64,000 nt of DNA, from assembly GCA_033439295.1 (NCBI GenBank), contig JAVTLE010000023.1, forward strand, positions 62,001-126,000, read 5' to 3'. This DNA comes from Deuterostichococcus epilithicus (Eukaryota; Chlorophyta; Trebouxiophyceae; Prasiolales; Stichococcaceae). Under the pieces are notes generated by a model. That model made no database searches. It saw only the letters and a list, made by a program, of their open reading frames with translations, and had not been told where the DNA came from. Positions within the stretch are counted from its first letter, which is position 1, and each line of letters starts with the position of its first letter. Below are positions 1-64,000 of the stretch, one piece after another. Both the position numbers and the translations under genes were made by a program.

Positions 1-1020
1 CTGGCAGAGTTACATGGGCTGGAATGCACGAGCGCCCTTCAGAACCCCTCAAGCGTGCGGCCATGTGTGCAGAGTTGGCGCCACAGCAAACAGCCTGACA
101 CAATTCCATTCAAAATGTGCCCATCGGTCCACAAACAGTATATTTCAGCACCAGCGCATCTGCTCAGCTGCAGCGTAGGTTGCAAGTCTACCGCTGCGCG
201 GAGGCAGATCGGGGGCACAAAACATGCTGCCCATGAACTTACCACGTTTGGGCGCCGTCAGGCTGGTCGCTGCCATTGCGGCGGCCCCATCGCCTGCGGC
301 AGCACTGCCGCCGCCGCCGGCCGCGCCGCCATTGCCTGCATCTTTGCTGAGGTCTGTGAGCGGCTGCAGCACTAAGAATGCAAGCATGCAGCGAGCCAGC
401 TGACGCAGATGTCGCTGCAGCCTGCTGCAGGCCGAGCACTCTGCTGGTGCCGACAGCTGTCACTACGCCTATGCCGGTGCAGTGCACAGCTGTATTCGTT
501 GACGGTGCTGACTGCGGCCACCAATAGTAGAACGTGCACCAATGCATTTGCGTCATATGCTCTCGCTGACGGATCATACGAGAGGCTGCCGAAGCCTGCA
601 ACAGCTCCGCGACTGGGCGGACCGCCGAGGACATGGCAGCATTGTTGCCTGCTGCCAGGCGGGTGCGGCTCATGTCGCAAGCGGAGCTGCCTCATCGCTG
701 AGATGCGCGCAGTTGCAGCCACCATTGCGAGACCTCACTCCGGGCAGGAGGCCGAGTGTTGCGCATGCTGCCTGCTGCTGATACGCCCACATGCTGTGCT
801 GGAGCCGCATTTGACATTGGCATTCTCCTCAGGAAAACCATGAGCGGTGAGGAAAGCACCGAACTCCCCACCAATGCAGATGGAAGCACCCGCAGTGTAG
901 TCCGCGCAGCAGCGCCAGCGTTGGGGTCAGCACCGCGCTGATGCCAGCTCAAGGATGGAAGCAATACCAGACAAACCCAGTCCCAGACCCTAAATGCTAA
1001 AGCAACATTAGCCCGCCAAC

Positions 1021-4000
1021 CTGGTAGCTCGACCGCCGCCGCGCCGCTGCCGTGGACACGGCTGCGCTTGCTGGGGCCGGCGCTGCCGCCTGCGGCCCGC
1101 CTGCCGGTGCCGGGGCGGGCGGCCGCCTGCTGCTCCGCCGCAAACAGGTACACGTCCTGTTCACAAGAGGAGGAAGACGATTAAATGGTGTCTTAGTCAA
1201 TTGAATTTTGCCTTTTTGCGGCACAGCTGCAGGCGGCCGTCCACCCACCAGAGCGCGTCATTCGATCGAACGACCACCAGCTGCGACAGTCACGAGCACT
1301 GGAAGCTGGGAGTCTGATCGTGGACTGCACGCTTGTCATGCGTTAAGAGGTGGGTGGCACCAGTCGAGTGGTCCGAATGCTGCAGAGTAGCAGCAAGCGG
1401 CGGCAGTTGCGTCAATCAGAGACATTTCCACAGTCAGCAACGGCACTCAGCAGTATGGTCACACTGATACAAAGGTTGTGCCCCTTCGTGAGGTGCAGTC
1501 ATGGCGGGTCGCAGTGGCCTCGGCCCAGTCAAATTATGTGTGCAGCTGTGCTGCTCGCAGCAGCCCTGCAGTGGCAAGCAGCGCCGCTTGCTGCAGCAGC
1601 TGAGTACACGCTCAGGACTGGAGTTGCAGATGGAGATGCTCCATAAAAGTGGCGCAGCACGAGCATGGTCATGTTATTATGTTCTAGCATGCTTGCGGTC
1701 GTGGCCTCGAACATGATGGCATGACCGTGCTGCTCCTCTTTGATGGACACATATCTGCTGCGGGGTTCCCGTGTGTGTGGAGCAGGACTGTCACGCGGTG
1801 CAGCCTGTCTGCTGAGTGCTTGCAGCGGCTTCCGCCCTCGAACGAGCTTTCACCTAGCCTGCGCCAGGCTCCAAAATCCAGGCTCAATGCTGGATGTGGG
1901 ACATGCTACCTCGTGTGGTGGGCAAGGTAGTCTGTTGAACTACGTTCCTATGTACTTCTGAAAGTAACACTTACTCGCCGCTTGATATCCACCTTTGTCC
2001 ACTATCTGTTGAGCTAACTACACCGCTCACCTCGTCGTTGTAGGTGGCCGCGATCTCGCCGTCGCCGCTGAACATGGCGCACGTGACGTGCACCGGGCCT
2101 GCCGCCGAGCGGCCACCGCCGCGCCGCAGGTGCGCCGGCGCCAACTTCCGCACCTGGGCAGCAGTAAGCAGTGCAGTGCGTAATTTGGCTTGGGGTTTTA
2201 CGGTTTAGAGCCAGCTATCGGGCGGATGCCGCCGCCCCGCAGGTGCGCGGCGCCAGCTTCTGTACCTCGGCAGCAGCAGGAAGCAGCAGCAGTGCGCAAA
2301 TTCAGGGCCTCAAGGCGAGATGAGCTGACTCGTTGCCAAGCGGCCGCCGCCGCGCCGCAGGTGCGCCGGCGCCAACTTCCGCACCTGGGCAGCAGTAAGC
2401 AGTGCAGTGCGTAAGTTGACTTGGGGTTTTACGGTTTAGGGCCAGCTAACGGGCGGATGCCGCCGCCCCGCAGGTGCGCCGGCGCCAGCTTCTGCACCTC
2501 GGCAGCAGCAGGAAGCAGCAGCAGTGCGCAATATTCAGGGCCTCAAGGCGAGATGAGCTGACTCGTTGCCGAGCGCCCGCCGCCGCAGATGCGCCAGCGC
2601 CAGCTTTCGCACCTGAGCAGCAGGAAGCACAGCGGTCAGCCGCTAGCGTGTCGAAAGGTGGCTATGATGTCAAAGTTTGCGCCCGTTCTCGACTGCACAG
2701 CATTGCCGTCAAGCCGCCGCCGCTGCACCGCGCCGCAGGGCGGTCATAAGGCCTGCTTTTCTGGTGATAGGGGGTCTCACCGGCTGCGCAATGGAAGCTG
2801 AGGAGCTGCCGTTGCCGCCGCCATCGCCGCCACCGCCGCTGCCGCCGTTTGCCCTCCGCTGATCGTACACCCGCACCGTCTCATCGGAGCCGCCAACGAC
2901 AAACTGCCACGGGCGCGCGGCGTTGCAGTGGATGGAGTTGAGCTCGATGGCGCCGCTGAACTGCGCGCAGGCAGGGTCAGAGGTGTCGACATATTTCCAT
3001 GAACGCCACGGCGCCGAGGTCAGCTCGATGGTCTGCTGCACAGACCGCGGGGAGGGGACGACCAGCAGCATCGCCAGAAGTTGAGACGATGTGCAGCAAC
3101 CCCACACATGCGCTTGAAGCTGCATCAACAACGTCGCATTCCATGCACAGGCACGAACAACCCAGCGCAGAGGCCCTCGAGGCAGGGGTTCCATGCAGGG
3201 CGCTGTGCATTGCAAAACGTTGGAAGGGTGAGCATCGCTGCTCACCCGGCCGGTGCTGGCGCGGCACACCAGCAGGCGGCGCCCTGGGCCCGGCGGCGTC
3301 CGCAGATCGAAGTGCCGCACCTGCGGCGCAGCGGAGGATGTGTCATAATTCATTGCTTTTTCAAGATGTTCGCCTTTGAATGAGCAAGAAGTATCATCGT
3401 CGCTAAGCTGGTCCGACTTGGGAGGCGTTCTTCCATGAGGCGGCTCTGCAGGAGTGCGGGCTGCAGCCACGGAGACGGTCTAGGTTTGGGAGAGCCTGAG
3501 AGGTCTCTCCACGGTCGACAGCCCCCTATGCAAGGCTGGTGATGCATCTGTCTTGTGCCCGTCACCGCAGCAGGGTTGAGCCAGACGCCAGCTGGTGCCT
3601 TGCAGCTAGCAAGGGCATCTGCTCTGCTAGCCTGCAGCGCTTGCGGGACCTCAGCGACAGGTCATCACCCAGCCAGTGATCCATATCCAGGCAGCAGGAT
3701 GCGGCAGGAACAAGGATGCTTACACGCCATGACTCTGCAACTGCGTGATTCAGGCATCCATCAGCTGCGGCACCTGGACACCTGAAGTCGTGCCATGCTC
3801 CCAGAATGGCATCTAGGATTTCTACGTGCAGTCTGGGTAGACTACAGGGGTGTTACAACCGCCAGCTGCATGGGCACTTGCATGAGAATTAAAACGACGC
3901 ACCTCGCCGCAGGAAGCAGATGGGGTCGTCCAACTCCAGCGCCCGCGCCTGACATGTTTTGGGAAGTTTCAGGAAGACAGCACTTGACTAAACATAGGGT

Positions 4001-6082
4001 TCATCGCACCGCGCCGTCCTCCCCGCAGGACAGGAAACAGGTGGGCGCATCTGGCTCCAGCGCCAGCTTGTGCGCCCGCCCGGCATGCGTCACCAGCTTG
4101 GCAGTCTCCACGCGGCCCGCCTCCGACACATGCCCCACGCGCACCTGTGAAGGGTGACCAAGGTTTGCTGACCTCAGATCCGAGAACATCGGCACAGCGT
4201 CACCGGCTTGGCGGTCTCCATGCGGCCTCCGACACATGGCCCATGGTGCACCTGCACATGCATGCATATGACCGGGTTGGGTTTCCAGGTTTCCGGGTTT
4301 CCAGGTCGGGTTTCGCTCCCTCTGCAAATGGCGGACAAGCTTCGCCATACGGACCGTCTCCCCACAGCCCGCTCCGACTCGGAGCTGACGCGCACCTGTG
4401 AAATGGCAGGTGCGGGATCGTTCGTGGTTTGCAAATTGAAAGTGACGACACAGCGTCACAAGTCGGGCAGTCAGCACGCTCCCATCTACTGACACATGCC
4501 CCATGCGCAGCTGCGATGCCACGACAAGTTTGTAGAGGGTGGTTTCATTCACGGTTCTACAACCTGACGACAAAATGTGAAGTATGAAACCCAGGACCAG
4601 CCTGGTCCAGGAAGCCAAGCTTCGACAAGGGATTTAACAGCAGCAAGAAGCCCCTGAAGCGGGAGCCTGGGACCTTCGAAGAGCAGCAGCCAAAGTGGAC
4701 TTTGGGTGGACCGTAACGTGACTACACGTATGGCATCAGCTACACGATGCTGTAAGAAGCCCTCGTGTTTGCGATGTCATAACATGACAGTCATGCCACC
4801 GTGACTGGGCCGCGGGTCGCGCTCTACAGGAAACCATCAAGTAGTGCATACCGGTTGCACTCCAGGAGTGTGACCGGCCCCAAAGAGCAGGGGCAGTTCA
4901 ATAGCCCTGATGTTGCAATTCCGTACAGTCTGTCTGCGACGACAAGGCAGAGGTACCTTTTTATATGAAGGAAATTTTACCTGACCGTCCGCGGCGCAGG
5001 TCACAATGGTGGCATCATTGGAGTACGGCAGCGCCCGCGCCTGCGGATGCAAATTGTGGAGAAGAAATTTCTTCTTGCCCGCACGCAGACAAGGCAAGGC
5101 ATACCAGCATACCCTTGCCTCCGCACCCTTGCTGCATTTTAAAACGTATTTGTGCTTCGCTGAGCTGGCTTTCAATTCCGTGAATCATTGGAAAGTCCTA
5201 CAGCTACATGCTCAAGTGCAGGGTTGACCACCCACCTGGAACACATTGTTGCGGTGCCCGCTGTTGTACTTGAGCCGCTGCTGCCCTGCGGCAAGCATGA
5301 AGGCTTGAAATATCGATGTTTGGGCATCGGCCCTTGAGGGGGGCTGCCAGATGCGACACAGTGTCACTGCCGCCTTTGAGGGCGGCGGGTGGGGAGCAAC
5401 ATTCATGACGCCACCTTTGCAGCCCAGCACCCGGTGGTTTAATGGATCTGGCAGGCCTTCGATCCCCCGATCCCAGCACGCTTGCGTGTGAGGATTCAGC
5501 ATCTCGTTTGTATATTATACACCTCACCCGATTGCCAGTCCCAGAGGATGACCGCATGGTCGTCCGAGCCAGACAGCAGGTGAGCTCCTGACGGCGTGAA
5601 GCTCTGCGTGCACAGGTTGTCGTGTTGCCTCAATCATTCCCTACATGCTCCTTCTGCTACTGCAACATCTGCATCGACTGCGAACCAGCTGCTGCTTGGA
5701 GATGCGCTGACCGCTCAGCTCAACTGGGAGATGTCGGCAGTGGTGCGCGAGAGACGGTCGTAAGAAGCCTATCCTGGCGCAGAACACTGATAGAGAGGCA
5801 GCATAGGCTGTTTCTAGCGGTACAACACCAGGCACGGCTTCCGGAATTGTCCCGGAAGCTGAGATTTTGGTGGCGAAGGTGACGCTAAAACTGCAAGCAT
5901 TTTGAGCACTTCAACAACATCACCAGACAACAACCCACCGCGGTATTGACACAGCCGTCGTGTCCGTCCAGTAGGCGCTGTCGCTCGAGGCGCTGCACCA
6001 GATCGCTCTCGGCGGAAATTCTGCGTTGCAGTTGCCGTGAGCTCACGCCACCGGTTTCACGCTGCTGTAGCACCCGGAACAT
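1021..6082 (-). CDS. DCAF8: DCAF8/WDR42A-type WD40 protein, 3' part missing
   Basis: WD40-repeat substrate receptor of the CUL4-DDB1 ubiquitin ligase family (family knowledge). Nine exons join in phase: 6082-5939, 5603-5528, 5285-5236, 5040-4981, 4144-4010, 3320-3270, 2960-2781, 2153-2031 and 1156-1021, giving about 318 residues. The N-terminal segment has the plant-like arrangement RETGG...LVQRL...GHDGCVNT. Clear blades follow: SGSDDHAVILWDW, GHRNNVFQ, CAADGQVRVG, HKLALEPDAPTCFLSCGEDG, VGGSDETVRVYDQR and FSGDGEIAATYNDE then DVYLF. A Gly/Ser-rich stretch follows the YDQR blade. The last exon ends at a GT donor inside an Ala/Arg-rich linker. The expected later blades (GHRN...VSGSDCG) are not in positions 1-1020, so they presumably lie beyond the left edge. 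The ATG at 6082 fits, but an extra upstream exon is possible because an AG acceptor lies a few codons inside. Several introns hold decayed exon copies, listed separately. Confidence 0.88.
2111..2640 (-). repeat. Five-unit array of partial DCAF8 exon copies
   Basis: The 5' end of the exon at 2153-2031, with its acceptor, is repeated upstream in the same intron. Matching points fall at 2140, 2252, 2371, 2484 and 2599, so unit spacing is 112-119 bp. Units 1/3 and 2/4 match best, showing a later 231-232-bp duplication of a two-unit block. The block also carries a shared telomere-like stretch (ttttacggtttag) at about 2195 and 2426. Only the unit at 2110-2160 continues into the intact exon. Confidence 0.85.
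3907..3960 (-). repeat. Decayed copy of the 3' end of DCAF8 exon 5
   Basis: The stretch from the ccgcaggaagcag at about 3909 to the gcctgacatg near 3956 resembles 4020-4087, which spans the exon 5 end and donor. The copy lies in the next intron, so both ends of this exon have echoes. Confidence 0.55.
4180..4520 (-). repeat. Three decayed copies of the 5' end of DCAF8 exon 5
   Basis: Copies of the exon start at 4144 (acceptor plus codons for VRVGHVSEAGRVETAKLVT) lie upstream in the intron at about 4185-4252, 4343-4402 and 4450-4520. They read as degraded versions such as AMCRRPHGDRQAG and RVGHVSVDGSVLTARLVT in shifting frames. Similarity falls with distance from the true exon. Confidence 0.75.
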
Positions 6083-15295: not shown

Positions 15296-18232
15296 ATGGT
15301 TAAGCTCACGCTCATAGCCCGCGTCTCGGACGGCCTGCCGCTGGCGGAGGGTCTGGACAGCGATAAGGATCATGAACTCGGCAACTTCAAGCAGCAGGCG
15401 AAGGTGTGGTCGGCATCCACTGGATGCTCGCCTTCACATGTGCCGTGCAGGCGCGGCGCAGCCTTCGCCCTCTTCCCTTGTTGCATGAGCCGCCGCCAAT
15501 GCAGCGGCATCAGCGACACGCAACAGTGCTGTGCGAGGTTCTGTCTGCTTGCTGTTGCACATGCAGCTGGAGATGCATGATCTGTCACGTCTACAGCACT
15601 CGGACGCCTCCTGCAGTGCGGAACTTGTCCAGGAGAGTGGCTGGTTGGAACCGCGATATCCCTGGCTTCCCTGACAATAGCATCTGTGGCGCAGAACCTG
15701 TTCAAGAAGATGGCGGCAAGCGGCGCGGGGCAGCCCAAGCGCATGACGCTGGAGTCAGGGCCGATGACCTTCCACTACATCATCACCGGCAACGTCTGCT
15801 TCCTTACGCTCGCGGACAAGGCGAGAGAGCATGGCATCCTGCGCATGCCAGCCCTCTGAGCATCTGGAATCTCACAGGCAGCCGCACCTGAGGGTGTGTG
15901 GGACATCATCACCAGCGGTACCTGCTTCCGGCTGCCGCTGTTGATGATGTCCTGCACCCTCATGTGCGGCACCTGCTTCCTGCCGCCTGCAGCTGCCTCA
16001 TGACGGCAGGCAGGGCCCGACAAGCCGTTCAGCCGTCCCGGCGCTGCCAGGCGCGCTCAGCGTGGCCAGCAGCGCTCACGAGAGCGGAGATCCTCTGAGC
16101 TCTTCACTGCACAGCTAGCAGAGGTACCAGCAAATGGCCGACGAGCGCTCGGACGAGATGCAGCAGCAACATTCTTTCAAGTAACACTTCGGACGCAATT
16201 TGTCTCATCGAAGTCCTCCGAGTGGATGTTGGAACCCTTTGCTGGGCCGCAGAGCTACCCGAAGAAGCTGGCCTACGAGTATCTGGACGAGCTGCAGAAC
16301 GAGTTTGGGCGGTTGTACGGGTCTCAGGTGGATGCGGTCGCGCGGCCCTACGCGTTCATCAAGTTTGGTGAGTGGCTGAGGGTCCACGCACTCGAAGCAG
16401 GAGGTCCAAGCAGCCTTTTCTCACCTTCTCTGGATGACCTTCTCCAAAACTGTTACAGTAAGTGACACGGCGGAGCCGCACCGGGACGGAAGTTAGCTCA
16501 GTGGCAAAAAAAACCACCTTTAAAGCAGCAGTGGCGGGGAGCTGGTGGCGCAGCAGCGCTGCCGAACGGGGGCGAGGGCGCTGTGCACGTCCGCTTGATC
16601 CGTTGCGATCTGCATGACGGGTGTTCTGGAACACTGAGCTGCACCGCCAGCTGTGCCGGGCGACCAGCTGGAACGGCAGCTGGCCGACAGCTGGGGTTGG
16701 CTGGCAAGGATGTCCAGGCAGGGCAGTACTAGTGGCGCCACTCGCAACCCCTGCCAGGTTTCCACGGCAGAACGCCAACATGACGAGAAGTTGACGAGTG
16801 GTCAGAGGATGACGCTGGAGGTTTCCTCGCTCAGAGGTGCACTGGATTTGCTGCAGACACGTTCATCCAGAAGACCAAATAAAGGTTTTCTTGGTTATTT
16901 CTGCAGACACGTTCATCCAGAAGACCAAAAAGTTGTACTTGGACACGCGGACGCAGCGCAACATCCTGAAGCTCAACCAGGACATTGCCGAGGTGGGTTT
17001 AAGCTTTCAAAGTTTAGCGTCTCCGCCGCTGCGCAACGTATTGAAACCCTAAGGCGAACCCGCCTTGGCGAAGCAGCTGGACGACGCCGCCTGCCGTTTG
17101 CCGCTGCTGCTGGCCGGCGTGGGTGCAGCGCTCAGAGCTGCGCCATGACATTGCTTGCACCACTTGATGTCGAAGCAGCCGGTCTTGCCCACGAGGTGCG
17201 GCTTCAGTTTTACAGGTGCACCAGATCATGACGCGCAATATTGCGGAGGTGCTGGAGCACGGCGAGCGACTAGACCGTGAGCACTCGAATCCCAGTCACT
17301 ACATTTTGATAACTGCCCCTGCAACCTCACTCTCCTGTGGTACCAGCACGCGGTAGGCGGTGGCAGCCGTAGCATGCCTTCAGCCGCTGTGGTTGAGCAT
17401 GCACCGCACCTGCGGCATGAGCACATACGATCATACAATGTTTCCAATAACTTGTTAACACGTCAGCTCTCGGACCGCAGGCATGACGCAGATGTCCAAC
17501 ACGCTGACCTCCGAGTCTAAGGTGTATGCCAGCCGGGCAAAGGACCTGCAGCGGCAGGTGAGCGCCTCCGCGTTCAGCAATTTCGGTACTTTGAGTACAA
17601 TTGAAAAGGGATCCGGCAGGGGTGTACACCGGCAGTGCTCCAGATCTGCAGCGGCATGTGTGCCTCCCCATGGCATGCATGGCTACTTGTGGAGCACCGG
17701 AACATGTGGTGCTGAAGCATTCGGCAGGGTGTCCAGGTTGTAAAGCACGCCCTCATGCGTCCGCTCGCGAAGCTAGGCCTAGCTCGGTCGCCTTACGATG
17801 ACGAATAATCGTTCATGAGCGAGGCGCCGATGGGCAAGGCACCGCGCCTGACCAGCGCTGCTTGGACCCTAAACCTTTAAGAAGCCGCGCCCGCAAGGGC
17901 GCTCAAACAGCAATGCCCATGTGTGCTTACCGCCTGCGTCACAAGGCGCTCGCTCCGCAGGTGGCACAGGGGTCCGAGGGGCTAAACAGCAACTTGTTTC
18001 GAAAACTGGTCCGAAATCTCAACTCGAACTTCAGATAAAATGTCGCTTTGTCCCCGCCTCGGCCCCCTGCAGGACCTCCCACATCTTGCTGACTGACCTG
18101 CCCGCTTATGCCTGCAAGGTGAACCCCAGACTCTGCTCGCAGGCGATGCTCCGAAAGTACATGCCCTTCGCGGTCGTCGGCGGCATCGCGCTGCTGGTGC
18201 TCTTTTTCCGGCTCGTCTGGTTCCGGAGGTGA
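15296..18232 (+). CDS. SEC22: Sec22 longin-type R-SNARE
   Basis: R-SNARE for ER-Golgi vesicle fusion. Seven exons join in phase: 15296-15403, 15695-15820, 16253-16367, 16907-16992, 17216-17276, 17481-17557 and 18143-18232. The 220 residues match the family length of about 215. The longin domain spans roughly residues 1-125 (MVKLTLIARVSDGLPLAEGL; ESGPMTFHYIITGNVCFLTL; SYPKKLAYEYLDELQNEF; AARPYAFIKF-like). The SNARE helix spans roughly 130-190. The C-terminal anchor is FAVVGGIALLVLFFRLVWF. Exon 2 uses a GC donor (aag/gcgaga). The zero-layer position, Arg in yeast Sec22 (YRGD), aligns with His160 here (EHGE). Two introns carry decayed copies of exon ends. Confidence 0.95.
15897..15990 (+). repeat. 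Decayed copies of the 3' end of SEC22 exon 2
   Basis: acatcatcaccagcggtacc at 15903-15922 and the following bases match the exon stretch at about 15777-15815 (acatcatcaccggcaacgtc...). A weaker third version follows at about 15957-15990 (gtgcggcacctgcttcctgc). Both lie in the intron just downstream of the exon. Confidence 0.7.
16852..16884 (+). repeat. Copy of the acceptor and 5' end of SEC22 exon 4
   Basis: ctgcagacacgttcatccag and the next bases occur at 16852-16881 and again, as the true exon start, at 16901-16930. The offset is 49 bp. The upstream copy reads into a TAA right after ACCAAA, so using its acceptor would truncate Sec22. Confidence 0.9.
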
Positions 18233-33241: not shown

Positions 33242-34365
33242 CTAGACGCCGCCGCCGGCGACGGCGCCGCCGGGCCTCCCCGCCGTCGCCGTGAACGCCT
33301 CAAAGGACGTGCCCATCTCCTGATACAGGTCCATCACCTGTACCAGGAGTTTGACAAGAGTTTTCTACCACAACTCTTCTGGGTACTCTCCTGCAGCGCG
33401 ACCGTCCACGATGTCAGCTTTAGGAATATGAGCCGCCGACTGATCTATGGGGCTGAGCAATATGAGCAGGCACATCAAGAAGCTGTCTACTACCAGTCCC
33501 CATCCCCTGGTGCAAGGATTACTGCCTGCAGCGTCACCACACACCTTGCGGCACCATTTCACACCTTGGCAACGTTGTCGTTGAGCTCCCCGATCAGCAG
33601 CTGGTTGCGGGCCAGGCCCTCAGGTGCCCGCTCCTCGTGGTTCGCCGCGATCTCCTTGATCAGCAGCCTGCGGGGCGGGATGCGGCACACTGAAACATCC
33701 GAGATGAGCAGCCTGCGGGGCGGGGGCGGCACACTAGAAAGATCCGAGCCTCATAAGTGCCTGTGCATGCATGCAGACGGCAAGAGCACGTCCAATTGCA
33801 GAATGTCGCTTGCGGCCGGCATGCATGCCGCCCGGGCGGCGAACAGAACAGGCCGGTAAAACTCACAGCATCCGCCCCCTCGCGCACTTGTTCTGGTCGA
33901 GGATGTTTTGCACGTTGCCCGTCAGCTCGAAGCCGGGCCAGCCGAGCCCGTCCGGCGGCATCGCCGGCTCTGCAGCCGCCGGCGGCGCCACCGCTGGCGC
34001 CGGCACCACGAACGCCGGCGGCGCTCCCACCCCTCCTGGCAGCGCCGCCGGCGCCGCCAGCATCTGTGCGGGCGCCGCCTGCGCCGCAGGGACCGTCTGC
34101 AGCGGCTGCTGAGGCTGCGCGCTGGACCAGGGCTGCTGCTGCTGCTGCTGCTGCTGCTGTGGCTGCTGCAGCACCGCTGCCATGCCTCCGTTCAGCATGC
34201 CCGCATCTGTCGCGGGCTGGCCTGCATAGCCCCCGACAGGCTGCTGCACAAATGAAGGCGCCACCGGCGCCTGCTGCATGGTTGGGCGTGCTGGCCCCGC
34301 CTGTGGCTGTGGATTTCCGAATTCCTGCTGCCGTGCGACTGCAGGCTTCGCAGCCTGCAGCACAG

Positions 34366-34427
<62 letters not shown>

Positions 34428-45021: not shown

Positions 45022-45054
<33 letters not shown>

Positions 45055-48000: not shown

Positions 48001-49775
48001 GTGCGCTCAGGCCGCAGGGCTGAAAACCAGCAGAGCACCGCACAGCTGGCTTTGAACTGTCGTGCAGGGTCCAGCACGCGAAATTGGGTGGCGAAGACCA
48101 AGTGCAGCAAGCCCTGAAAAGCGGACCTGTAAAGTTCGCCATTGCCTGGACACCAAATGGCGACCCGCTGACCCACGGCCGCGAGGCCGGCGGGCTGCGC
48201 CAGCTCCCCTGGAGCCGCCGCCGCCAGAGCTGAAGAACCCACCGCGCCCTGGGGCGACCATGCCGGCGGCGACAGCGGCTCCATCGACAGGCCTGACACA
48301 CGTGAGAGTTGAGGTTCAAACGGCACTTCTGCAGCAAGTGCCTGCACTGAGTGTGGAGCTTCAGTGGTTGAGGCCCCGGGACAGCGCCCGCCTCTGCTTC
48401 CGACAGAAGCCGAGCACCCAGCAATGCCATGTTCAGATTCTGCATTGGGTTCTGCACCGGTGCGAGCTGACCTGCATGCCTGGCACCAGGGTCTGCTTGA
48501 CTAGCTCAACGGGAGACCAGCACCGGCAGAATCGCCTCGAGTTCAAAGGAAGCCGTGCCACATCCACGCACAGCAGGCAAGTAGGTTGGGTGCTCGACCA
48601 GGCGGACTTATATTGATGATAATCAATTGCTCACCCTGCGCGCCCAGGGCGAGCAGCGCCCGCTTCAGCGGCTCGGTGCAGCCCGCGGACCGCGCCCGGG
48701 GGGCCAGCCACCGGAAAGCGTGCCGCGGCAGCGCCAGCCACTCGTCCTCCCCGTCATCGTACACCACCTTTGCGCGCTTGTGGTAGCCGTCGAGCGCCGC
48801 CAGGGTGCCCTGTGTATTGACCAGGTTTCAGGAGGTGAGCAACGGACGGCCTTGGCACGCTTGTGGTAGCCGTCGAGCGCCGCCAGGGTGCCCTGGCGGG
48901 TCGATCAGCTGTTTCAATTCTAACCCGAACATTCAAATACCGCGGCCGGGATGGCCATGGAAGGAGGGCGCAAGGGTGTGAATTGACCTAAAAGAATGCT
49001 CCAGAGCTTTGGGCCATGCACCACCCGGCGCCCCTCTTCAGTGGCATCCCTGCCTCGGCACTCGAGAGAGCCCAAGACCCCCGCCTGGGCGTGAGCACTT
49101 GACACAGCTCGCTTACCGATCCCCTGCAGGAGCAGTGAAAAGGGGGGCAGGACCCAGACGCTGCGCGAGAGAGGAGACCCGCAGGAAAGAACCCGCAGGG
49201 GGAATGAATCACCTTGTAGTAGGCCGCGTCCTCGTCCCAGTAGACGGCAATGCGGGCGCCGGTGAGCGCTCCTCCCCGCGCCCAGGGCCGCCCGCGACCG
49301 CGCCGCCAGCCGCGCCGCCCGCAGCGGCCGCAGCCCCGCGGCGTCGGCGCCCCCCGGGTCCTGGCCGGCCTCTGGCAGCTTGCTGCGCCGCACCTCGCAG
49401 GGCTGCACGGCAGGAGTGCACGTCATACGCCTGCTCAGCTGAGTCGAGCAAGGGGGGGATTCGAGGCTGTTCCCTTTTCGAGCTGGCTGTGCACACAGCC
49501 AAAGTATGAGGGACGGGCCTGCAAGCGCTGGGTGCATTAGCGTCCGCCCACTTGCTCAGAGAAAAGAGAACGGCCCAGTGCAGCAGAAGAGACTTGAGGA
49601 GAAAGTGCTGCTCGCCTGCTCGGGCGGCGGCAGCGGCGGGCTGGTGCCGACGACCTCCGGCGGCGCCGCCGGCGCCGACAGCCGCACGCAGATTGGCGAC
49701 AGCGCTTTCTGGTGCTGCTGCGCCACCGACAGCGGCGGCTGCGGCGGCGGCGGCTGCGGCGCCGTCAGTGTCGAC

Positions 49776-49817
<42 letters not shown>

Positions 49818-55433: not shown

Positions 55434-58400
55434 ATGGCGGGTGGTTCCGAAGGGCCGTCGGGAACGCCCCGGAAACGCAAGGGCCTGCGCAAACTGCTGC
55501 CTGGCGGCCACAAAAAGCATGGGTCGCCGCTGCTCCACCGCGCCTCGGTGGATCCCATTCGGCGTGCTGCGCTGCAGCAGGAGTCCCAGCGCAGCCTGCA
55601 AGTGCAGGCGCAGGCAAGTTCTCTCGCTGTGCTCCCTCTCTGGAGTCCTCGAAACTTGAAGTGATCCGCAATCACGTCATACCTGCAAGCTCTGCGCGCA
55701 GAATGGCCTGCATGTGCAGCTTGGCAAACCTGCGGTACAGCCACTGTGATGGGTGCTGTGCGCCATCACATGTTTTGTGCGCACCGACCAGGTTGTCCTG
55801 ATTCGCCTGTTGGACAGCAACGAAGACGGCCTGCATGCGGATCTGCATTCTTTTAGCGACATGCCTGCATCACGATACGGCTGCTGGTGCACCGGGGGAG
55901 GCGCCGTCAACAAGTCCAGCTGCCATGCGGCAGCTCCGCATCAATTGCCTCAAGTCGCGGAGCTGAGCACCTGGCGTGCTGCAGCGTCGACGCCTCCTGC
56001 TCTATCACGAGCGCCAAGTTCACTGCGGCGTCCTGTCCCAGGCGTCGGGGGGCTTCGCGAGGATGCTTGGGGGAAGTTGCCCCGAAACGGCAGCACTGCC
56101 ATCCGCCGAACGCTGCACTGACGGTGTGTGACGCATCGTGACGCGACCGCAGGACTCGGCGCCGGTGCCGTCAGAGAGCCGCACGGTGATGCTGGAGGGC
56201 GGCCGCCCGACGCCGGGCTTCAAGCACAATGGCATCAAGACGTCGAAGTACAACCCGGTCACCTTCCTCCCCATCTTCCTGTTCGAGATGTTTTCGCGCG
56301 CCGCGTACCTCTACTTCCTCATCCAGGTGTGGCTCTGCTTCCACCTTCCAAATATGAAAATCGCACCCCACTCCGCTGCGCCCCTGCTGCCCCCTAGCGC
56401 CGCCCGAGCGACAGGGCTGAGCGCACCGTGCCTTCAGCGCTTCCCCCTAGTCCGATGAGGGCCGTGCACACACCGCTCGGCATGGTGGCAGGGACAGCGG
56501 CTCCCGGGGGTGGGCTCTCAGTGCGGGGCGGCAGCGTCTTCTGGAGGCCAACTCCGCTGAGCCCCGCCGCTACCTACTTCGCGGCATGCCAGGCGCCCTT
56601 CCTACCGAGCAGCAGGCAGCCCCTGCCGCCACAGGGCTGCCCCACACGGGTGCCTCCCGTGTGATCATGGGCGGGCCACGCCTGGTGGGACACAGTGAGC
56701 CCCCGCAGTGGCTGTGGTACCAGCGCCGGCCCGGCATGTTCCCCTGGTGAGACGACAGCCCTTCATGTCAGCACGCTCAGCGTGTCACACCCATGCTACA
56801 CCCCTAACTCTTCTGCTGTTAGGCGGGCCTCGCCTGGTGGAGCACCGTGAGCCCCTACGGCGGCTTCGGGTCGACCGCCGCGCTGGTGTTCGTGCTGCTG
56901 GTGGCCGGCATCAAGGCGGTCTACGAGGACTTCAAGCGCCACGCAGAGGACAATGAAACCAACAAGACGGTTACGCACGTCATGCAGGCCGACGGTGAGG
57001 CCACAAAAGGCTCTTGAACCTTGAGAGCTTTACGGGGCAGCGGCGTGCGGAGGTCGACGCAAACAGGAGTGCCGCGCATGTCCGCGTCGGCCATCAAGCC
57101 CGTTTCAGATATATCTTTGTACCGAGCGTTGCATGGCGCGGGTGCGCGCTGCGCCGCTGTGTGGCACGTATGGTTAGCAAGGTCGCCGCAAGCGCGGGCA
57201 GCTCTGCAGGATTGTGCAAGCAGTGCTGCGCATCGGTGTTACTGGAGGCGCATGGCAAAGCCAGGCCGGCCTCGGGGCTGAGCTCCTTGTGAAACGCTGC
57301 CGCCACTGCGACCCTGCTGGCTGCTTTGCCGCCGCAGCTTCCAAACTTGCGATGCCGCACAGTGTGGATGTCAGCCAGGTCGTCAGGGGGAACGACGAGG
57401 AGCTGTTTCCTGCAAATGCCGTGCCGTGCCGAGCCTTGGTGCTCAACAGCAACCGGGCTCCTGAGTTGCAGGACGTGACATGGCGGAAAAGTGGAGGCGG
57501 GGCAGACTGTCAGAGTGGACGACGAAAGATACACAAACTCAGAAAGATAAACAGTGTTACTTATCGTTGTTCAGGCAGCTTCAAGGACGTCACATGGCGA
57601 AAAGTGGAGGTTGGGCAGATCGTCAGAGTCGACGACGAGGAGCTGTTCCCGGCGGACCTGCTGTGCCTCGCCTCGGCGCTGCCCGACAACGTGTGCTTCA
57701 TCCGCACGACCAACCTGGACGGCGAAACCAACCTCAAAGTCCGAAGGTGGATAAAATATTCTTGTTTGAAAACAGAAGCTCCCAGCAGTGTTCCCGCCCC
57801 GCGCGCTCATATGTGATGTGGCATCTGCTATGTCGATCTTGACAAGGGGAGGCCAAACCGCGGGCGCCGTCACTGATGCCAGCTGTCTGACAGCCTTGCT
57901 CCTGCTGGTCGCAATCGCTTGGTCATCCGTAGCCTCTGAACGTTCGCAGCTAATGCATGCCATGCTGGCGAGCACCGGGAATAGCTGAGGCGGCGGTGGA
58001 CTGGCAGTTGGGTGAGCGGCAGCGGGCACTGGTGTCTGCACGCTCCCCTTACTGCTGGCACGCAGGCCCTTGGAATCGCGAACTGGGAACGCCCCTACCA
58101 AGCGAATGCCCCTACCAAGCGAATGCCCCTACTAGGCGAGCACGTCCGGAACTCCGTCACAGCTTCGACCTGCGCCTGTGCAGCACGCTCAACACAGGCC
58201 CCGGGGGGCCGGACCGGGACGACCACTGGCTCACAGTGCGCGGGCGGCTGCAGTGCGAGGTGCCAAATGCGGACCTCCACAAGTTCAAGGGGCGCTTCGA
58301 CATGGTGCCCGCCGGTGCGTTTGTGAAGATCCGCACATGGATCAGGGCATGAGTCATGTTTCAGTCACACAAGTGTGAGGCCAAGGCGTGGCTGCACAGT

Positions 58401-61400
58401 TCGTGGGGCTTTTCAACACTGTGCCTGCCGGTGCGCCCTCAGGGCAAGCTCTGCGCTAGCCTCCAGCATGCCAGTCTGCACAAAGCACGCGAAAGTCATC
58501 ACTCAAACTGATATCTTTGCTGGCGGGCACTGCCGCAGCTTTGCGTGCTGGACCATGTGCCAGCGTGCACGTGACACGCTGGCATCGACCGCGCAGACGG
58601 TGAAGCGCAGAGCTCAACGTGCAGGGTTCAGGGTTTAGTGCGCCTGACTGCATGCCCTCGGGCTCGTGCCCCATCCGCATGCGACGTGCGTCCAGAAGTC
58701 TGCTCAGCATGCGGCAGCGGCTGTCAAGAAGCCGAGCCCCTGGCGCACTTCTTTGGCTAGGAGATGCTGCCGTCTGCTGTGCGGCACCAACACAGGATCG
58801 TGAGCCGAGCCTGCCCGACTCGGCATGTCCCTTATGTGCGACCCTGCCTTGTGCAACTCTAATACACCCTGTGTTTGTTGGCGCAGAGCCGGGTGCGCCG
58901 GCGGCCCGGACGGTCCCCATCACCATGAACGAGATGCTGCTGCGGGGGTGCACCCTCAAGAACAGCGGGCATGTCCTGGGAATGGTGGTGTACACCGGCG
59001 CTGACACCCGCATCCAGCAGAACGCCGCGGAGACGCCCCTCAAATACGGTGCGCTAGCTAGAGCTTAGGGCTTGCCTACCCCTACTACCCAGCTGCTCGA
59101 AGCGGCGCGCAGGGCTGCGCCGGTTGCACACACGCTCCCCCGAGTGGGGAAAGCTCCTGGTGTGCTGGTGCTGCCATGGGGCGAAACCAGGGCCGAGACA
59201 TCTGATCGCCTGAACGCGGTGGTCATGCTACTCGCGGACAACATCCACTGCATGTCCCTCCATTCCCAGCCTGCAATTTAGTACAATACACAGGTTGACC
59301 ATGTGCCTCCCCCTGCCGCAGGTTCCTTCGACAACTTTCTCAACATCCAGATCGTGCTCATCATCGCGCTGCAAGTGGCGATGTGCCTGCTGCATGGCGG
59401 CCTGGCGCTGTGGTGGCGCAACGCCCGTGGCGTCGACCGCTACTTCCTTGCGCTCACCCTGGAGGGACAAGTGCGTCTGTGTCTACACGTGCTTTTTATT
59501 GATGAATCCAAATCCCACACATGATACCCAGACCACCCTGTTCAGCTCTCGCCCCTGCCAGCAGTCCTCCCTGCGCTTGCCCTCACATAGAATTGTGGGT
59601 AAGGATTTAGCGTGAGAGGCACAGTTCTGGCATGTCGCGCATGAGTCAGTGCCGTGCACAGGGCTTGCTGCTGCTGCAGTTGTCTGTGCAGGGTGGGATG
59701 TTGCAGTGTGCGCCATACACATGCATTTTTGCCACTGCTTGCAGCCGTCTGACTGGCCAAGCCATGCGCTGCTTGCACATTTGTTCAGCCTGTTGAGCTC
59801 GCCATGTCGCTTCTCTGCACGCAGGGCAACTACACGAGTGACACGGCGCAGTTCTTCATCAACCTGGTCACCTTCTGGATCCTGTACTCCTACCTGGTGC
59901 CCATCTCGCTGTTCGTCACCATGGAGATCGTCAAGTTCTGGCAGGTGTGGCACTCTCCTAAACCCTTGGTCTGGATCCTGTACCTCACCTTGGGAGACCG
60001 CGAGGTTCTGGCAGGTGCGGTACCTCGAGGATTTGGTGATGGTGGATGCGTCAAGGACCTATGTGTTGAAAGCGGACACAAGAAGCGGTTCATGTCGATG
60101 TGAAACCCATCAGGTCTCTCAAGTGCAGGGCATCATGTTCGCAACTAAACCCTGCATCGACCCGGAGACGGTGTGGACGCGACGGTGTGGCCTGGACATC
60201 CGACACCGTGTGCATCAGTCCGGACGTTTGATCTAGTAGTTATGTTTGGGGCGCAGGGCTTCGTGTTCGTGAACAATGACCCCGAGATGGTGGACGCGGC
60301 CGGGCAGCATGCCAAAGCACGTAACACCAACCTGAACGAGGACCTGGGCAAGGTGAGCGCACGTATCACGGATCCGGAAGTCGTTGGGAGTCTGATCAGT
60401 AGAGACGTTCAAGTATAGCTGGAAGTCATTGGGAGAAATCCTCACCGGTGCCGGCTCGAGGACCCGGACAATGTGTGGCTGGTGCTCCAGTCCAGCTTGC
60501 AGTCAACGCTAGCTTGCGGTCAGCGGCAGGGATGAGCTAGCGATGCGCATGTGATTGGCGCCAACAGCGTGTGTGTGTCCAGACAAGCTCGGCGGGCTGC
60601 CGGACACCCAACCTTGCGCTGCGCTGCCGCTTGCCATCTACATTGCAGCGCAAAGGAGACTCACCCTTTTCTTCATGCCCTGCAGGTGTCGTACGTGTTC
60701 TCGGACAAGACCGGCACGCTGACCAGCAACGAGATGCAGCTGCGGCAGATCGCCATCGAGGGCGCCGCCTATGGCAGCGCCGCCTACAGGTGACACTTTT
60801 GCCGCAACATTCAGGGTGTCACGACCTCAATCGCGGCCTCACAATGCACGCGGCGGTGCGGGCACACGGGTGCACTGTTTAATTTGTAGGGTTTGGTGTC
60901 ACGGCATACTCACTGGGCTTGCTATGGCAGCGCCGCGAATGCGTGACGTCCTGCTTCAAGGCCTTGGCCCTGCTGCAACTGACTGTTCCTCGTAATAATT
61001 GTACCCTGTCATCAGCAGCTGCACGGTCTGCATTGCTGTGGGGTGTGCAGTGCAGTTCGCCCAGAGACGGACCACCAAATGATTCCTTCGGAACTCTGCA
61101 CTCTGACCAAGCACACCTTGCACGAGGGCGCGCAGTCGGCTAGCTTTGACAGCTCCACAAAAGACTTGAAACCTTCTCTCTGAACCGACTGAAGGATGCC
61201 CGCAGATCAACGGCACGGATGCTCAATGCCATTGATCTGTGCGCCAGATTTTAGTCCAGAGGAGACTCCGGCGTAGGCGGCCGGAAGCGGCGGCAGCCGA
61301 AACTTCAATGTGACTTCTGCTGGAAGACCGAGCGACTTGGTATCTGTGACATGCAGGCTGGAGGACCACCCAGAGCTGAGCGGCTCTGACGCTCTGCAAG

Positions 61401-64000
61401 CCTGGGACGAGCGGCTGGCGGCGGCGGCGGCCGCGGGGCCGGACGCGGCCGAGGGGGTCGCTTTCCTGGCCGACCAGCAGCGGGCTTTCTGGACCAACGT
61501 CTGCATCTGCAACACGCTCATCGTTGAGCGTGGCCCTGACGGCGAATACGTTTACCAGGTGAGAAGTTTAGGGTTCTTAGGGAGTGAGTAGGGTCTGGGC
61601 CGGTGTGGTATCTGTGCAGTCGAGACGCCTTTCAGGCGGTTTAGCAGAGTCGCATCGCCGGCATCGGGGGCACCCGTTAGGCCAGTCCTCTCAGCAGAAC
61701 AGTCGGCGACGCTGCTGCACGGGCCCAGCCGTGGTGCTTGGCATGCTCGCCTCCGCCAGCGCATCATGCGATCCCCTGCTTGCCCCAAGCCCCCGGGGCC
61801 CATGTTCTGACGAGGTGGCGCTGCTGGAGAGCGTTTTGCAGCTGGGCTTCCGGCTTGTTACATGCAGCCTCCTGCTCGGTTGAGAACGGATTTAAGAACC
61901 TGCTCAAGCGCTTTTCACCTTTGGCAGGGCCCGTCTCCTGACGAGGTGGCGCTGGTGGAGGGCGCCGCCCGGCTGGGTTTCAAGCTGACGCAGCGCACTT
62001 CCAGCTTCCTCACCCTCAACTTCCAGGGCGAGGTGCGCGCATGCTGTACGTACTCAAAAGGTTCAGGTTCCAGATTTTTGAGGTCAGTTTGCGCCCTGCA
62101 CAACCAACGTGCACCTTTCAGATCGTTGAAGACTCTCAGGGACTCTCAGGGCAAGGTCTTAAGATGCCATCTGAACGTTTGCGTTTACTGCGGATCCGCC
62201 CATTTCAGGTCCCAATTTCGCAGACGATATGTTGATGAGCAGCCTGTCAACGCCAGTATGCATGCCGCCTTGCGGACAGGTCTGGATCTGTGGCGCTCCA
62301 TTTGACATTGGAATGAAAAGGAAATGAACAGGATGTAGGAAAACTCAACGGAAAGGAAAAATTTGCGCCACAGGAGGAGGTGTGGGAGGTGCTCAACGTG
62401 CTGGAGTACTCCAGCGCGCGCGCGCGCATGTCCGTCATTGCGCGGGGGCCCGACGGCAGCATCTTCCTATTCTGCAAGGGCGCCGACGCTCGGGTGCGGG
62501 GGCGCATACGCCCTTGAAGTTGCCGCGTGATGGTTGCGCCCCCCCTGCCTGTCCAAGGCGTGCTGTTGCATTGTGGCGAGGTGTTGAAGATACGTACCTG
62601 GGCGCTCCGACAGCAGCTCTCCGGCGCTACTGCCAGGCTGTACCACTAGTTGATCCCGGCCGCGGGATCCGACACAGCTGGATGTCCTGCCGGTGGCATC
62701 TCGCGACTCTTACTCTCTTTTGTCACGTTGGTGCGTAGATTTTGATACTTGGTTTTTCTTCTCAGTCTTCATTTCCACTTTTCAGGTCCTGTCAATGGTG
62801 GAGGGGCGCACTGAGCCGGAGCTGTACCGCGCAACGGAGCAGAATCTGCATGAGTTCGCCGTCAATGTGAGTCTGTGGTCTCCCTTCGTTTAGCTGCGAG
62901 GCGCCACCCACTTCGCACAATCGCATGATCGCACAAGGCGAAACGTCCAAAACTAAACAGGTTCCCGGCCTTGGATCTGACGCAAGAAATTGGCGCTTTC
63001 GCGGTCCCTGCTGGCTGGGCGGCTCAGGACTGTTTGGGGACTTGCATGCTGCTGGAGCATCTGCACTTGTAACGGAGGTGTCAAAAGGTTTGTGGGGACA
63101 GCACATTGGTCGACAGACTGCGGCGCAGGCGGCACATGGGCAAGGCTCCGCTCGACCCTGTGATCGATGGGCCCACTGCCTGGCTGCAGCCTCTTTGCTG
63201 ATGTGGCCACCAGTGTGCGAGCGCTGCGCATTCCGAATCCGAACGCTCTGGTAACTGCTACCAGGGCGCAGTCTTCTGGCCGATAAAGCTGCACGCATTG
63301 TGGGGTTTGCCGGCAAGGGTGTCCTGACGGCCCAGCGAGTGGGCGCCTCTCATGATGCACGATGCCCGCCGATTAGTTGATGACATCTCTTGTTGATGCA
63401 CTGCAGGCTTCGCACAGTCATCTTTTGCGCCAAACTCCCATTCGGTGGCAATGCAACCCGCTGACTCTTTCCCCACTGCTCAGCAGGTTCTGAATAGGGC
63501 TTCGATGGTGGTCAACAAGGAAATGGGGCAAGTTGGTGGCCCGCCTGAGCTGCTCTTTTTGCATTTTCCTCAACGCAATACCAATAGCAACCACTTGATG
63601 CTACAGGGCCTGCGCACGCTGGTAGTTGCCAGCAAGGAAATGGGCGAGGATGAGTGGGCGGCCTGGGACGCGCGCTACCAGCAGGCGGCTGCAGACCTCG
63701 ACCGCCGCGACGAGCTGGTGGGTGTCGGACTCCTCTTCACGTGGCATGTGTGACGCACCCTCTGACGTTTTGGATCGCCACTCCTTGTGGGATTCCATCC
63801 CGGGAGCTCCTTGAAGGGGGCTGCCTGTCGTCCCACGACGCCGCGTGCACAACGTCGGTGGACGCCTCGCCGCTGTGCTGTGTGCTGTGCTGTGTCCACT
63901 GCTACAACCAGCTGCAACACTGTTTCGTGCACCTTTCCGTGTCTCGTACCTGTTGCGTCATTCGTGAACCCAGGTGGCCAAATGCGGGGAGGAAGTCGAG
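55434..64000 (+). CDS. P4-type ATPase (phospholipid flippase), 3' part off window
   Basis: Flips aminophospholipids across Golgi or plasma membrane (family knowledge; ALA in plants). Sixteen exons join in phase: 55434-55613, 56153-56326, 56823-56994, 57575-57746, 58163-58314, 58887-59048, 59322-59470, 59825-59944, 60257-60352, 60686-60789, 61357-61558, 61928-62032, 62374-62493, 62786-62866, 63607-63717 and 63974 onward; about 709 residues of an expected 1,100-1,300. M1 and M2 lie in exons 2-3 ([40 protein letters not shown]). The actuator motif DGET is at 224-227. M4 has PISL at 413-416. The phosphorylation site DKTGT starts at Asp466. SPDEVALV follows in exon 12 and KGAD at 631-634 in exon 13. 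Exon 1 ends at a perfect GC donor (cag/gcaagt). At least eight decayed exon-end copies are in its introns. Confidence 0.96.
56665..56745 (+). repeat. Decayed copy of the 5' end of P4-ATPase exon 3
   Basis: gggccacgcctggtgggaca at about 56675 through cagtgagcccccgcagtggc repeats the exon start at 56823 (gcgggcctcgcctggtggag ... accgtgagcccctacggcgg). Offset about 150 bp. Confidence 0.85.
57371..57540 (+). repeat. Two decayed copies of P4-ATPase exon 4 sequence
   Basis: 57373-57450 reads [20 protein letters not shown], against [18 protein letters not shown] in the exon. 57468-57530 (ttgcaggacgtgacatggcg...) repeats the exon start ttcaaggacgtcacatggcg and reads [17 protein letters not shown], against [17 protein letters not shown]. 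The two copies are overlapping parts of the exon in partial order. Confidence 0.9.
58087..58136 (+). repeat. 18-bp tandem repeat before P4-ATPase exon 5
   Basis: cccctaccaagcgaatg is repeated with a period of about 18 bp: two near-perfect units and a third degraded one (cccctactaggcgagca). Confidence 0.9.
58416..58442 (+). repeat. Decayed copy of the 3' end of P4-ATPase exon 5
   Basis: acactgtgcctgccggtgcg repeats acatggtgcccgccggtgcg of the exon-donor junction at about 58300-58319. Confidence 0.7.
59960..60020 (+). repeat. Decayed copy of the 3' end of P4-ATPase exon 8
   Basis: ggtctggatcctgtacctca and gaggttctggcaggtgcgg repeat ccttctggatcctgtactcc and caagttctggcaggtgtgg of the exon and its donor at 59944. 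A telomere-like patch (cctaaaccct) separates copy from exon. Confidence 0.85.
60376..60440 (+). repeat. Short direct repeat with 45-bp period after P4-ATPase exon 9
   Basis: ggaagtcgttgggag at 60376 recurs as ggaagtcattgggag at 60421. Confidence 0.85.
60915..60952 (+). repeat. Decayed copy of the 3' end of P4-ATPase exon 10
   Basis: gctatggcagcgccgcgaat then gcgtgacgtc repeats gcctatggcagcgccgccta/caggtgacac at the exon-donor junction (60767-60796). Confidence 0.85.
61785..61865 (+). repeat. Decayed copy of the 5' end of P4-ATPase exon 12
   Basis: tctgacgaggtggcgctgct at 61806-61825 and gcagctgggcttccggcttg repeat cctgacgaggtggcgctggt and ccggctgggtttcaagctga of the exon at 61928. The peptide decays from [18 protein letters not shown] to [17 protein letters not shown]. 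Confidence 0.92.
63480..63535 (+). repeat. Decayed copy of the 5' end of P4-ATPase exon 15
   Basis: ggtggtcaacaaggaaatggggcaag at about 63507-63533 repeats ggtagttgccagcaaggaaatgggcgagg of the exon at 63607. Confidence 0.78.

Follow-up and report, generated by a model that had tools for sequence, protein, structure and literature searches.

In some genes of Deuterostichococcus epilithicus the terminal part of an exon recurs, on the same strand and in various states of decay, within the neighbouring intron. The distribution of these copies, referred to as echoes, supports a recurrent, local, same-strand process that puts exon-end copies into the touching intron. The window, i.e. the whole stretch of 64,000 nucleotides, was read together with 28 loci, of which L001 repeats the window. 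It was chosen since the first-pass annotation had flagged it; a piece of C15 was drawn randomly.

The gene finder was self-trained on 294 kb and reached convergence when started with generic codon statistics. Excluded from the gene models were L003, L004 and L009 (two contigs of small size and a contig end rich in repeats) as well as the low-GC, organelle-like L020 and L021. Most exon models are self-made and wrong in part. At 19879-26906, 6 of 16 model exons are missing from the transcript protein of the CslA-type gene; thus, gene-model error is considerable. For the exon-end counts the model exon start 21709 was shifted by hand to 21817, and the gene models themselves were left unchanged. 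A Pfam search with ten long open reading frames of the window gave no match, because the exons are short. Two gene names of the first-pass annotation could not be confirmed: the gene called DCAF8 matches WD40 and ubiquitin-like families in Pfam, and no Pfam family was found for the gene called PHD. Two further protein searches revealed no transcript of the same species; their best rows showed 49% and 57% identity.

For the comparison with introns, up to 100 bp of each exon end were aligned to the adjoining intron. In the 294 kb, 49 of 1,025 pairs of exon end and touching intron matched with a score of at least 30. From the introns of other genes 0.7 matches were expected, and 2 were found in inverted orientation. 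For the window 22 of 232 pairs were detected at this score (0.15 expected, 1 inverted). Exon ends were also compared with the non-touching introns of their own gene, with 22 matches of at least 34 in 15,929 comparisons. The intron on the opposite side of the same exon accounted for 20 of these; one further match lay within the DCAF8-type array and one was ten introns off. Thus, exon-end matches are commoner in adjacent introns than in the other-gene, inverted and same-gene comparisons, and the first-pass annotation stands in this respect.

Comparable results were obtained with self-matches. An ungapped search of the window (at least 24 of 30 bases) yielded 32 matches at offsets of 15-999, and 1, 0, 0, 0 and 0 matches in five control offset ranges of equal width. 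Gapped local repeats (E<=1e-3, offset <600) were direct in 27 cases and inverted in 1 in the window, and direct in 78 and inverted in 3 in all 294 kb, in line with the described same orientation. Among the genic repeat pairs, 46 of 64 were exon-intron and 3 intron-intron, while one third would be intron-intron if the same pairs were placed randomly. The estimate of 25-30 copies in the window was about right, with 23 exon-to-intron BLAST pairs plus four others (16842, 22798, 33649, 56670).

An artefact, either by assembly mixing of haplotypes or paralogues or by chance likeness of GC-rich sequence, is hardly credible. The controls with far offsets, inverted orientation or introns of other genes yielded almost nothing. 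Furthermore, there is no excess of differences at third codon positions such as is typical of allelic or paralogous exons, and three tested loci are without a second copy in the genome. For these three loci there is accordingly no paralogue to serve as outgroup.

The clearest junction-bounded case in the window belongs to the acceptor end of exon 48635-48809 (48850..48895, minus strand; offset 83), with 44 of 46 bases identical and an end 3 bp past the junction. Two echoes on the minus strand were assigned to the acceptor end of exon 47515-47663 of the multi-Tudor gene, 47723..47747 (offset 78; 92% over 25 columns) and 47794..47845 (offset 182; 92% over 52), the end of the second coinciding with the junction. 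Three echoes on the minus strand were assigned to the acceptor end of exon 4010-4144, namely 4197..4254 (offset 110; 82% over 62 columns), 4356..4402 (offset 252; 77% over 48) and 4453..4516 (offset 366; 75% over 64), whose spacers are mutually unrelated by score. In the SEC22-type gene the start of exon 16907-16992 is echoed at 16857..16892 (plus strand; offset 50; 92%).

Six echoes, all on the plus strand, were identified in the CslA-type gene. Exon 21190-21327 has one of its donor end (21371..21439; offset 108-110; 74% over 69 columns). For exon 21817-21987, the start (21705..21782; offset 108; 86% over 78) and the donor end (22099..22140; offset 160; 81% over 42) are copied. The same holds for the start of exon 22904-23036 (22798..22842; offset 105; 76% over 45), which with E 0.002 falls below the cut used for the set of 46 pairs, and for its donor end (23122..23160; offset 126; 85% over 39). 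The sixth copies the start of exon 23540-23659 (23428..23486; offset 107; 75% over 59).

Further echoes of the window, likewise on the plus strand, are as follows. In the gene first read as PHD-like, the donor end of exon 39183-39317 is copied at 39360..39419 (offset 100; 77% over 60 columns). Near the donor end of exon 40269-40406, the copy 40474..40527 (offset 142; 78% over 55) ends 22 bp inside the exon. In the P4-ATPase gene an echo at 56670..56703 (offset 152; 88% over 34) copies the start of exon 56823-56994 and overlaps the end of a possibly false model exon. Two copies precede exon 57575-57746: an older one at 57364..57443 (offset 240; 72% over 80), ending 29 bp inside the exon, and one at 57470..57525 (offset 114; 88% over 56), ending 9 bp inside it. 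Donor ends of exons 58184-58314 and 59825-59944 are copied at 58398..58435 (offset 116; 79% over 38) and 59978..60023 (offset 69; 78% over 46), and the start of exon 61928-62032 at 61796..61833 (offset 131; 87% over 38).

Graded decay, as described in the first reading, was found: the copies are of many ages, with identities of 74-96%. From the tests of codon position, frame, offset expectation, flanks and spacers, 11 of 41 echoes were omitted (arrays; ends >15 bp inside the exon). The differences at the three codon positions amounted to 43/379, 42/385 and 59/376 (27 echoes), and the offsets leave remainders of 0, 1 and 2 after division by three in 11, 8 and 11 of 30 cases, i.e. without frame preference. 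Echoes decay like sequence without constraint. The transcript-derived protein P0001 confirms ten exons of the CslA-type gene; none of the six echoes of this gene is present in it, including 21705..21782, which is in frame and stop-free. In view of the even codon-position differences, the missing frame signal and the absence from P0001, functional alternative or tandem exons were rejected. The idea that the copies supply raw material for new exons was not borne out, as neither a frame preference nor a trace of the six CslA-type echoes in P0001 was seen. No case of an echo turned into an exon was found at the level of the DNA sequence.

The copies had been described as including the splice junction. 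They do reach it, but most do not cross. Within the exon part identity is ~75%, and 3-6 bp beyond the junction it has reached the background level (24 echoes of acceptor and 17 of donor ends, 5 of the 46 pairs being omitted and the DCAF8-array rows included). In 28 of 46 pairs the outer end lies at -2 to +10 bp relative to the junction, compared with 12.4% under random placement, and in 37 of 41 echoes it is found on the exon side, at most 11 bp from the junction. For the CslA-type gene, checked against a transcript, all six outer ends are found -7 to +5 bp from the junction. The flanks of acceptor-side echoes score -0.12, between real acceptors (1.38) and random intron (-0.87), and are thus not plainly random.

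Short tandem duplication across splice junctions, as first proposed, was not borne out as the general case. In this model, the intronic part of an ordinary head-to-tail duplication of ~110 bp would become invisible, since drift acts on the two copies of the intron, in contrast to the conserved exon. True tandem arrays are in fact present (2104-2630, L014 and, in coordinates of the joined sequence, C15:17897-18211). The array 2104..2630 in the WD40 (DCAF8-type) gene (minus strand), with periods of 113 and 231, spans exon ends and introns and is a positive control, not a junction-bounded echo. At 33658..33748 (minus strand) a head-to-tail repeat of 45 bp with 89% matches covers the acceptor end of exon 33565-33712, the model's ELF4-like end. 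The intronic parts still align in true arrays; thus, the flank test is able to detect tandem duplicates. For 22 young echoes (identity of at least 83%) tandem duplication predicts 21.6 related flanks, but only 4 exceeded the 99th percentile of the null. Two more exceed the 95th percentile, and in one further flank, C15:19109, ~23 of 40 columns match as judged by eye. Hence, some events are or resemble tandem duplications. The expectation decreases to 10.2 of 22 if flanks evolve 2.5 times faster and to 8.2 of 22 at threefold faster evolution, with 1 of 60 simulations as low as observed. Flank evolution ~3 times faster than assumed would be needed, but indels in noncoding DNA of the sample are ordinary, e.g. 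45 substitutions vs 5 gaps in 1.3 kb. Simulated tandem duplications gave 270 intron-intron vs 188 exon-intron repeats, compared with real counts of 3 vs 46. In the simulation 69% extend into the intron by more than 10 bp; the observed set (arrays removed, 10 of the 46 pairs omitted) has 4 such cases among 36, and none among the 15 with identities of at least 84%. Ordinary tandem duplication does not explain most copies stopping near the splice junction, and we consider it unlikely as their source.

The offsets provide a further argument for head-to-tail duplication, since they cluster near 110 bp despite variable lengths of echo and spacer. Offsets of 100-120 were found for 17 of 41 echoes (arrays included), compared with 3.0 under uniform placement. 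From independent echo and spacer lengths 5.6 were expected and 12 of 30 observed (P 0.00065, with the bin chosen post hoc). This concentration may hint at a duplication unit. Of the offset clusters named in the first reading, the one at ~105-118 bp is real; for each of those at 44-50, 83 and ~230 there are one to three cases. At six exon ends with several echoes, the nearest one was the most similar in three cases, with one tie and two reversed. A comparison of 28 spacers with the sample gave three rows: in two, short stretches (19 and 17 bases) matched loci elsewhere, and in the third the match was to an echo of the intron concerned.

RNA-templated or RNA-inserted splicing intermediates were also considered. 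Fragments of exon RNA ending at the splice site would repair nearby intron breaks, which accounts for outer ends bounded at the junction and for the strict same-strand orientation. For human cells, PMC11390984 reports RNA guiding the repair of breaks near exon-intron junctions, a further point in favour of this route. On the other hand, no spliced exon-exon copy was detected: of 30 flanks compared with the adjacent exon, none matched it at P<=0.05. Moreover, the echoes remain beside their source exon. A core of 3-6 bp of the splice site within the copy is also unexpected from a cleaved exon end. Junction-spanning matches were limited to 2 in 8,615 comparisons. One of them, C15:1140, was rejected as a spliced copy (anchored P 0.15); the other, in C10, has a score of 34. 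Origins from spliced mRNA, circular exons or the adjacent exon were tested and rejected. Altogether, RNA templates appear quite improbable.

Alternatively, local copies could arise anywhere, and selection on splicing could purge those with a working splice site, leaving junction-cut copies. The small number of copies reaching far into the intron (4 of 36) would be accounted for, but neither the rarity of exon-interior copies, seen in the 37 of 41 outer ends near the junction, nor the near-absence of intron-intron copies is explained. We regard such selection as a very unlikely cause.

Junction-anchored break-and-copy repair fits best, and on the sequence patterns we would give it an even chance. 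A recurrent local mutation would copy ~20-75 bp of an exon end, mostly together with the core of the splice site, some 3-6 intronic bp. The copy would be left in the same orientation in the touching intron, with junction equivalents most often 100-140 bp apart. It would then decay unconstrained, being spliced out in the single gene for which a transcript was available. Exon-intron junctions may be a focus of DNA breaks or template switches, e.g. where an RNA:DNA hybrid covering the intron ends, and repair may re-copy the exon side while adding or keeping an unrelated spacer. In a wider sense, a mutation coupled to transcription or splicing may mark junctions in DNA and repeatedly write splice-site-cut exon ends into the touching intron. 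Splicing would thus leave a heritable mark and introns would lengthen from their ends; we hold this for a serious possibility, without favouring it yet. The copies bear on the growth of introns and on a possible influence of transcription and splicing on mutation in the genes concerned. If bounded by the junction, they would record such an influence legibly, with the age of each echo given by its decay, together with its source and the start and end of the event, and a genome rich in echoes would allow the study of this mutation in numbers.

Introner elements of algae and fungi bring sequence gain within introns. The echoes resemble them in that introns gain sequence, but no dispersed intron family is present here and the copies derive from the adjacent exon. 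The 11 intron-intron pairs in 523 introns are mostly repeats within one intron, the DCAF8-type array and duplicated genes at contig ends. Tandem exon duplication likewise repeats exon sequence next to its source, but echoes copy one exon end only and then decay. In potato RdRp, according to PMC4974935, a tandem genomic duplication crosses an intron-exon boundary and a new intron results. Both systems have a local duplicate with an internal splice junction, tolerated via splicing; compared with this description, the echoes mostly stop at the boundary, no new intron was seen and many exon ends are affected. In the intron gain model outlined in PMC3443670 and PMC2891723, an AGGT-bearing exon segment is duplicated and the echo is placed directly next to the far splice site of the gained intron. 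Nearby duplication of exonic sequence and a splice-site motif at the edge are shared with this model. In contrast, the gap to the far splice site was at most 25 bp in 4 of 41 echoes only, three in L014 and one at C15:18607; the others lie 65-730 bp from the far junction, and echoes outside arrays at least 65 bp. Direct repeats separated by filler have also been described; these are short, but echoes of 20-75 bp lie in existing introns and are junction-anchored. No description of junction-bounded exon echoes was found in the literature searched, a coverage from which subscription journals mostly fall out.

The density of echoes claimed in the first reading was found in the window (18 of 117 introns) and in the randomly drawn stretch of C15 (16 of 36), but it is local and not genome-wide, with 6 of 369 introns elsewhere. 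The best 18 echoes of the window total 841 bp of 40,547 bp of intron, a lower bound of ~2%. Thus, the introns are not 'built' from exon-end copies, as had been stated. Introns bearing an echo are longer: the median intron length is 418 bp with an echo, 294 bp without one in echo-rich genes and 210 bp elsewhere.

Copies of exon ends in the introns adjoining them had been claimed in the first-pass annotation. This observation is real, and sharper than could be seen there. An exon end matched the intron touching it in 49 of 1,025 cases (0.7 expected), and direct repeats exceeded every control: 32 repeats at short offset were counted vs 0-1 in the controls, and 78 were direct vs 3 inverted. Comparison of exon ends with the other introns of their own gene gave 22 matches in 15,929 comparisons; 20 of these fell in the intron that flanks the exon at its opposite end.

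Gene models were obtained with a purpose-written gene finder, whose unsupervised training used 294 kb: the window (bases 62001-126000 of the 4.61-Mb contig C19), 15 contig ends of 10 kb each and four internal 20-kb pieces. The whole genome comprises 46.8 Mb in 21 contigs and contains CCCTAAA telomere-type repeats; its protein neighbours include Trebouxia, Coccomyxa and Elliptochloris (identity 71-75%). Repeats and neighbours alike point to a probable trebouxiophyte green alga. The contig ends have a common repeat of up to ~2.4 kb (identity 95-99%), and 171-bp tandem arrays occur in the sampled loci L008, L014 and L019. Contigs C20 (97 kb) and C21 (211 kb) look organellar; GC of their first 10 kb is 30% and 28.6%. 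In the 294 kb, 46 genes with 523 introns were found, with donor CAG/GTG, acceptor YGCAG/G, internal exons of ~119 bp (log mean) and a median intron of 225 bp. Pfam and PDB concur with the earlier naming of the SEC22-like (Longin, Synaptobrevin), CslA-type (glycosyltransferase 2), ELF4, Tudor and P4-ATPase genes. For the supposed DCAF8-type gene the matches were WD40 and one ubiquitin-like, and the Pfam search of the supposed PHD-like gene returned no family. A single model at 33242-37314 fuses a HAD-like hydrolase with the ELF4 domain and may be two genes joined by the gene finder. Long CTG/CAG-type runs at 34360-34460, 42146-42240 and 49777-49835 encode glutamine tracts in the HAD/ELF4-like, PHD-like and multi-Tudor models.

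For the CslA-type gene the top match was P0001, a protein derived from a 2,451-base JGI contig. Since its exons cover 5.1 kb of genome, this contig was read as a spliced transcript. P0001 matched ten consecutive model exons with one residue differing from the genome; six further model exons of this stretch are absent from it. At every echo-bearing junction, an echo being a decaying same-strand copy of the exon end in the touching intron, the protein continues without insert, except for residues 248-250, which the exact-match test left unplaced at a junction codon adjoining the differing residue. GC replaces GT at 13% of all model donors, but at 0/9 donors between the transcript-confirmed exons; thus many model GC donors may be errors.

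Most copies end close to the junction. Of 78 repeat pairs, 14 lay outside gene models. The 64 genic pairs were exon-intron (46), exon-exon (8), mixed (7) or intron-intron (3), whereas random placement of same-size pairs makes one third intron-intron. A rare intron-only duplication is the 44-bp tandem repeat at 31708-31803 (92% matches), entirely within a model intron. The outer end, the edge of the match on the junction side, lay -2 to +10 bp from the junction in 28/46 exon-intron pairs (12.4% by random placement). Column-wise identity was ~75% on the exon side and reached background 3-6 bp past the junction. In the clearest echo (48850-48895), 44/46 bases equal the exon end at 48809, with no visible similarity beyond it.

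Tandem duplication across the junction, as formerly proposed, would copy a ~110-bp unit head to tail. Tens of intron bases would then be copied too and still be visible where the copies are at least 83% identical. Intronic flanks above the 99th percentile of the null were found for 4/22 echoes, but 21.6 were expected, and still 10.2 or 8.2 if flanks evolve 2.5 or 3 times faster; two more exceeded the 95th percentile. When simulated tandem duplications were searched with the same BLAST, 69% of the matches extended past the junction by over 10 bp of intron (observed 4/36), as did 78% at an identity of at least 84% (observed 0/15). That real tandem duplicates are recognised is shown by the array at 2104-2630 and by another within the C15 piece, a randomly drawn, echo-rich internal stretch. 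Besides the four related flanks and the two above the 95th percentile, two observations count against reading the copies as junction-bounded. A duplication unit would explain why 12/30 offsets fall at 100-120 bp, compared with 5.6 if echo and spacer lengths were independent, in a bin picked post hoc. Flanks of acceptor-side echoes have scores intermediate between those of real acceptors and those of random intron. The proposal is best restricted to a minority, among them these arrays and perhaps the four related flanks; tandem and junction-bounded events may occur side by side.

Differences at codon positions 1, 2 and 3 amounted to 11.3, 10.9 and 15.7% (27 echoes, identity at least 78%). This is the pattern of an echo that is free to drift and an exon that changes chiefly at silent sites. 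Had the copies been alleles, paralogues or a second exon with a function, the differences would be strongly concentrated at third positions, which they are not. The suggestion that echoes are raw material for exons is unsupported here.

Echoes were patchy, with 16/36 introns of the C15 piece, 18/117 of the window and 6/369 of the remainder bearing them. Those of the C15 piece belong to an SDG2-type gene and its neighbour. Their spread over genes is far from equal rates (X2 204 vs a simulated mean of 45), and echo-less introns are longer in echo-rich genes (294 vs 210 bp). The patchiness may reflect expression, replication timing or low recombination.

The copier would have to recognise exon ends, act within a few hundred bases while keeping the orientation, rarely copy intron and strike one end repeatedly. 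One end of exon 4010-4144 was copied three times, with mutually unrelated spacers. We favour, by inference, breaks arising at exon-intron junctions, possibly where RNA:DNA hybrids formed over introns end, with repair re-copying the exon side. Spliced mRNA as template was unsupported, with 0/30 echo flanks matching the adjacent exon at P<=0.05. In the open literature searched, of limited coverage, no description of such echoes was found. RNA is reported to steer break repair near exon-intron junctions in human cells, though in a different manner (PMC11390984). The nearest published single event found is a potato tandem duplication crossing an intron-exon boundary (PMC4974935). The intron from 21988 begins with the telomere-like repeat GTAAGGGTTCAGGGTTCAGGG (21988-22015). 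TTCAGGGTTCAGGG occurs once in the window, in the same orientation in no other sampled nuclear piece, and once reversed in the sampled locus L002. Capture of such a repeat at the 21988 junction would, as a single case, fit break repair.
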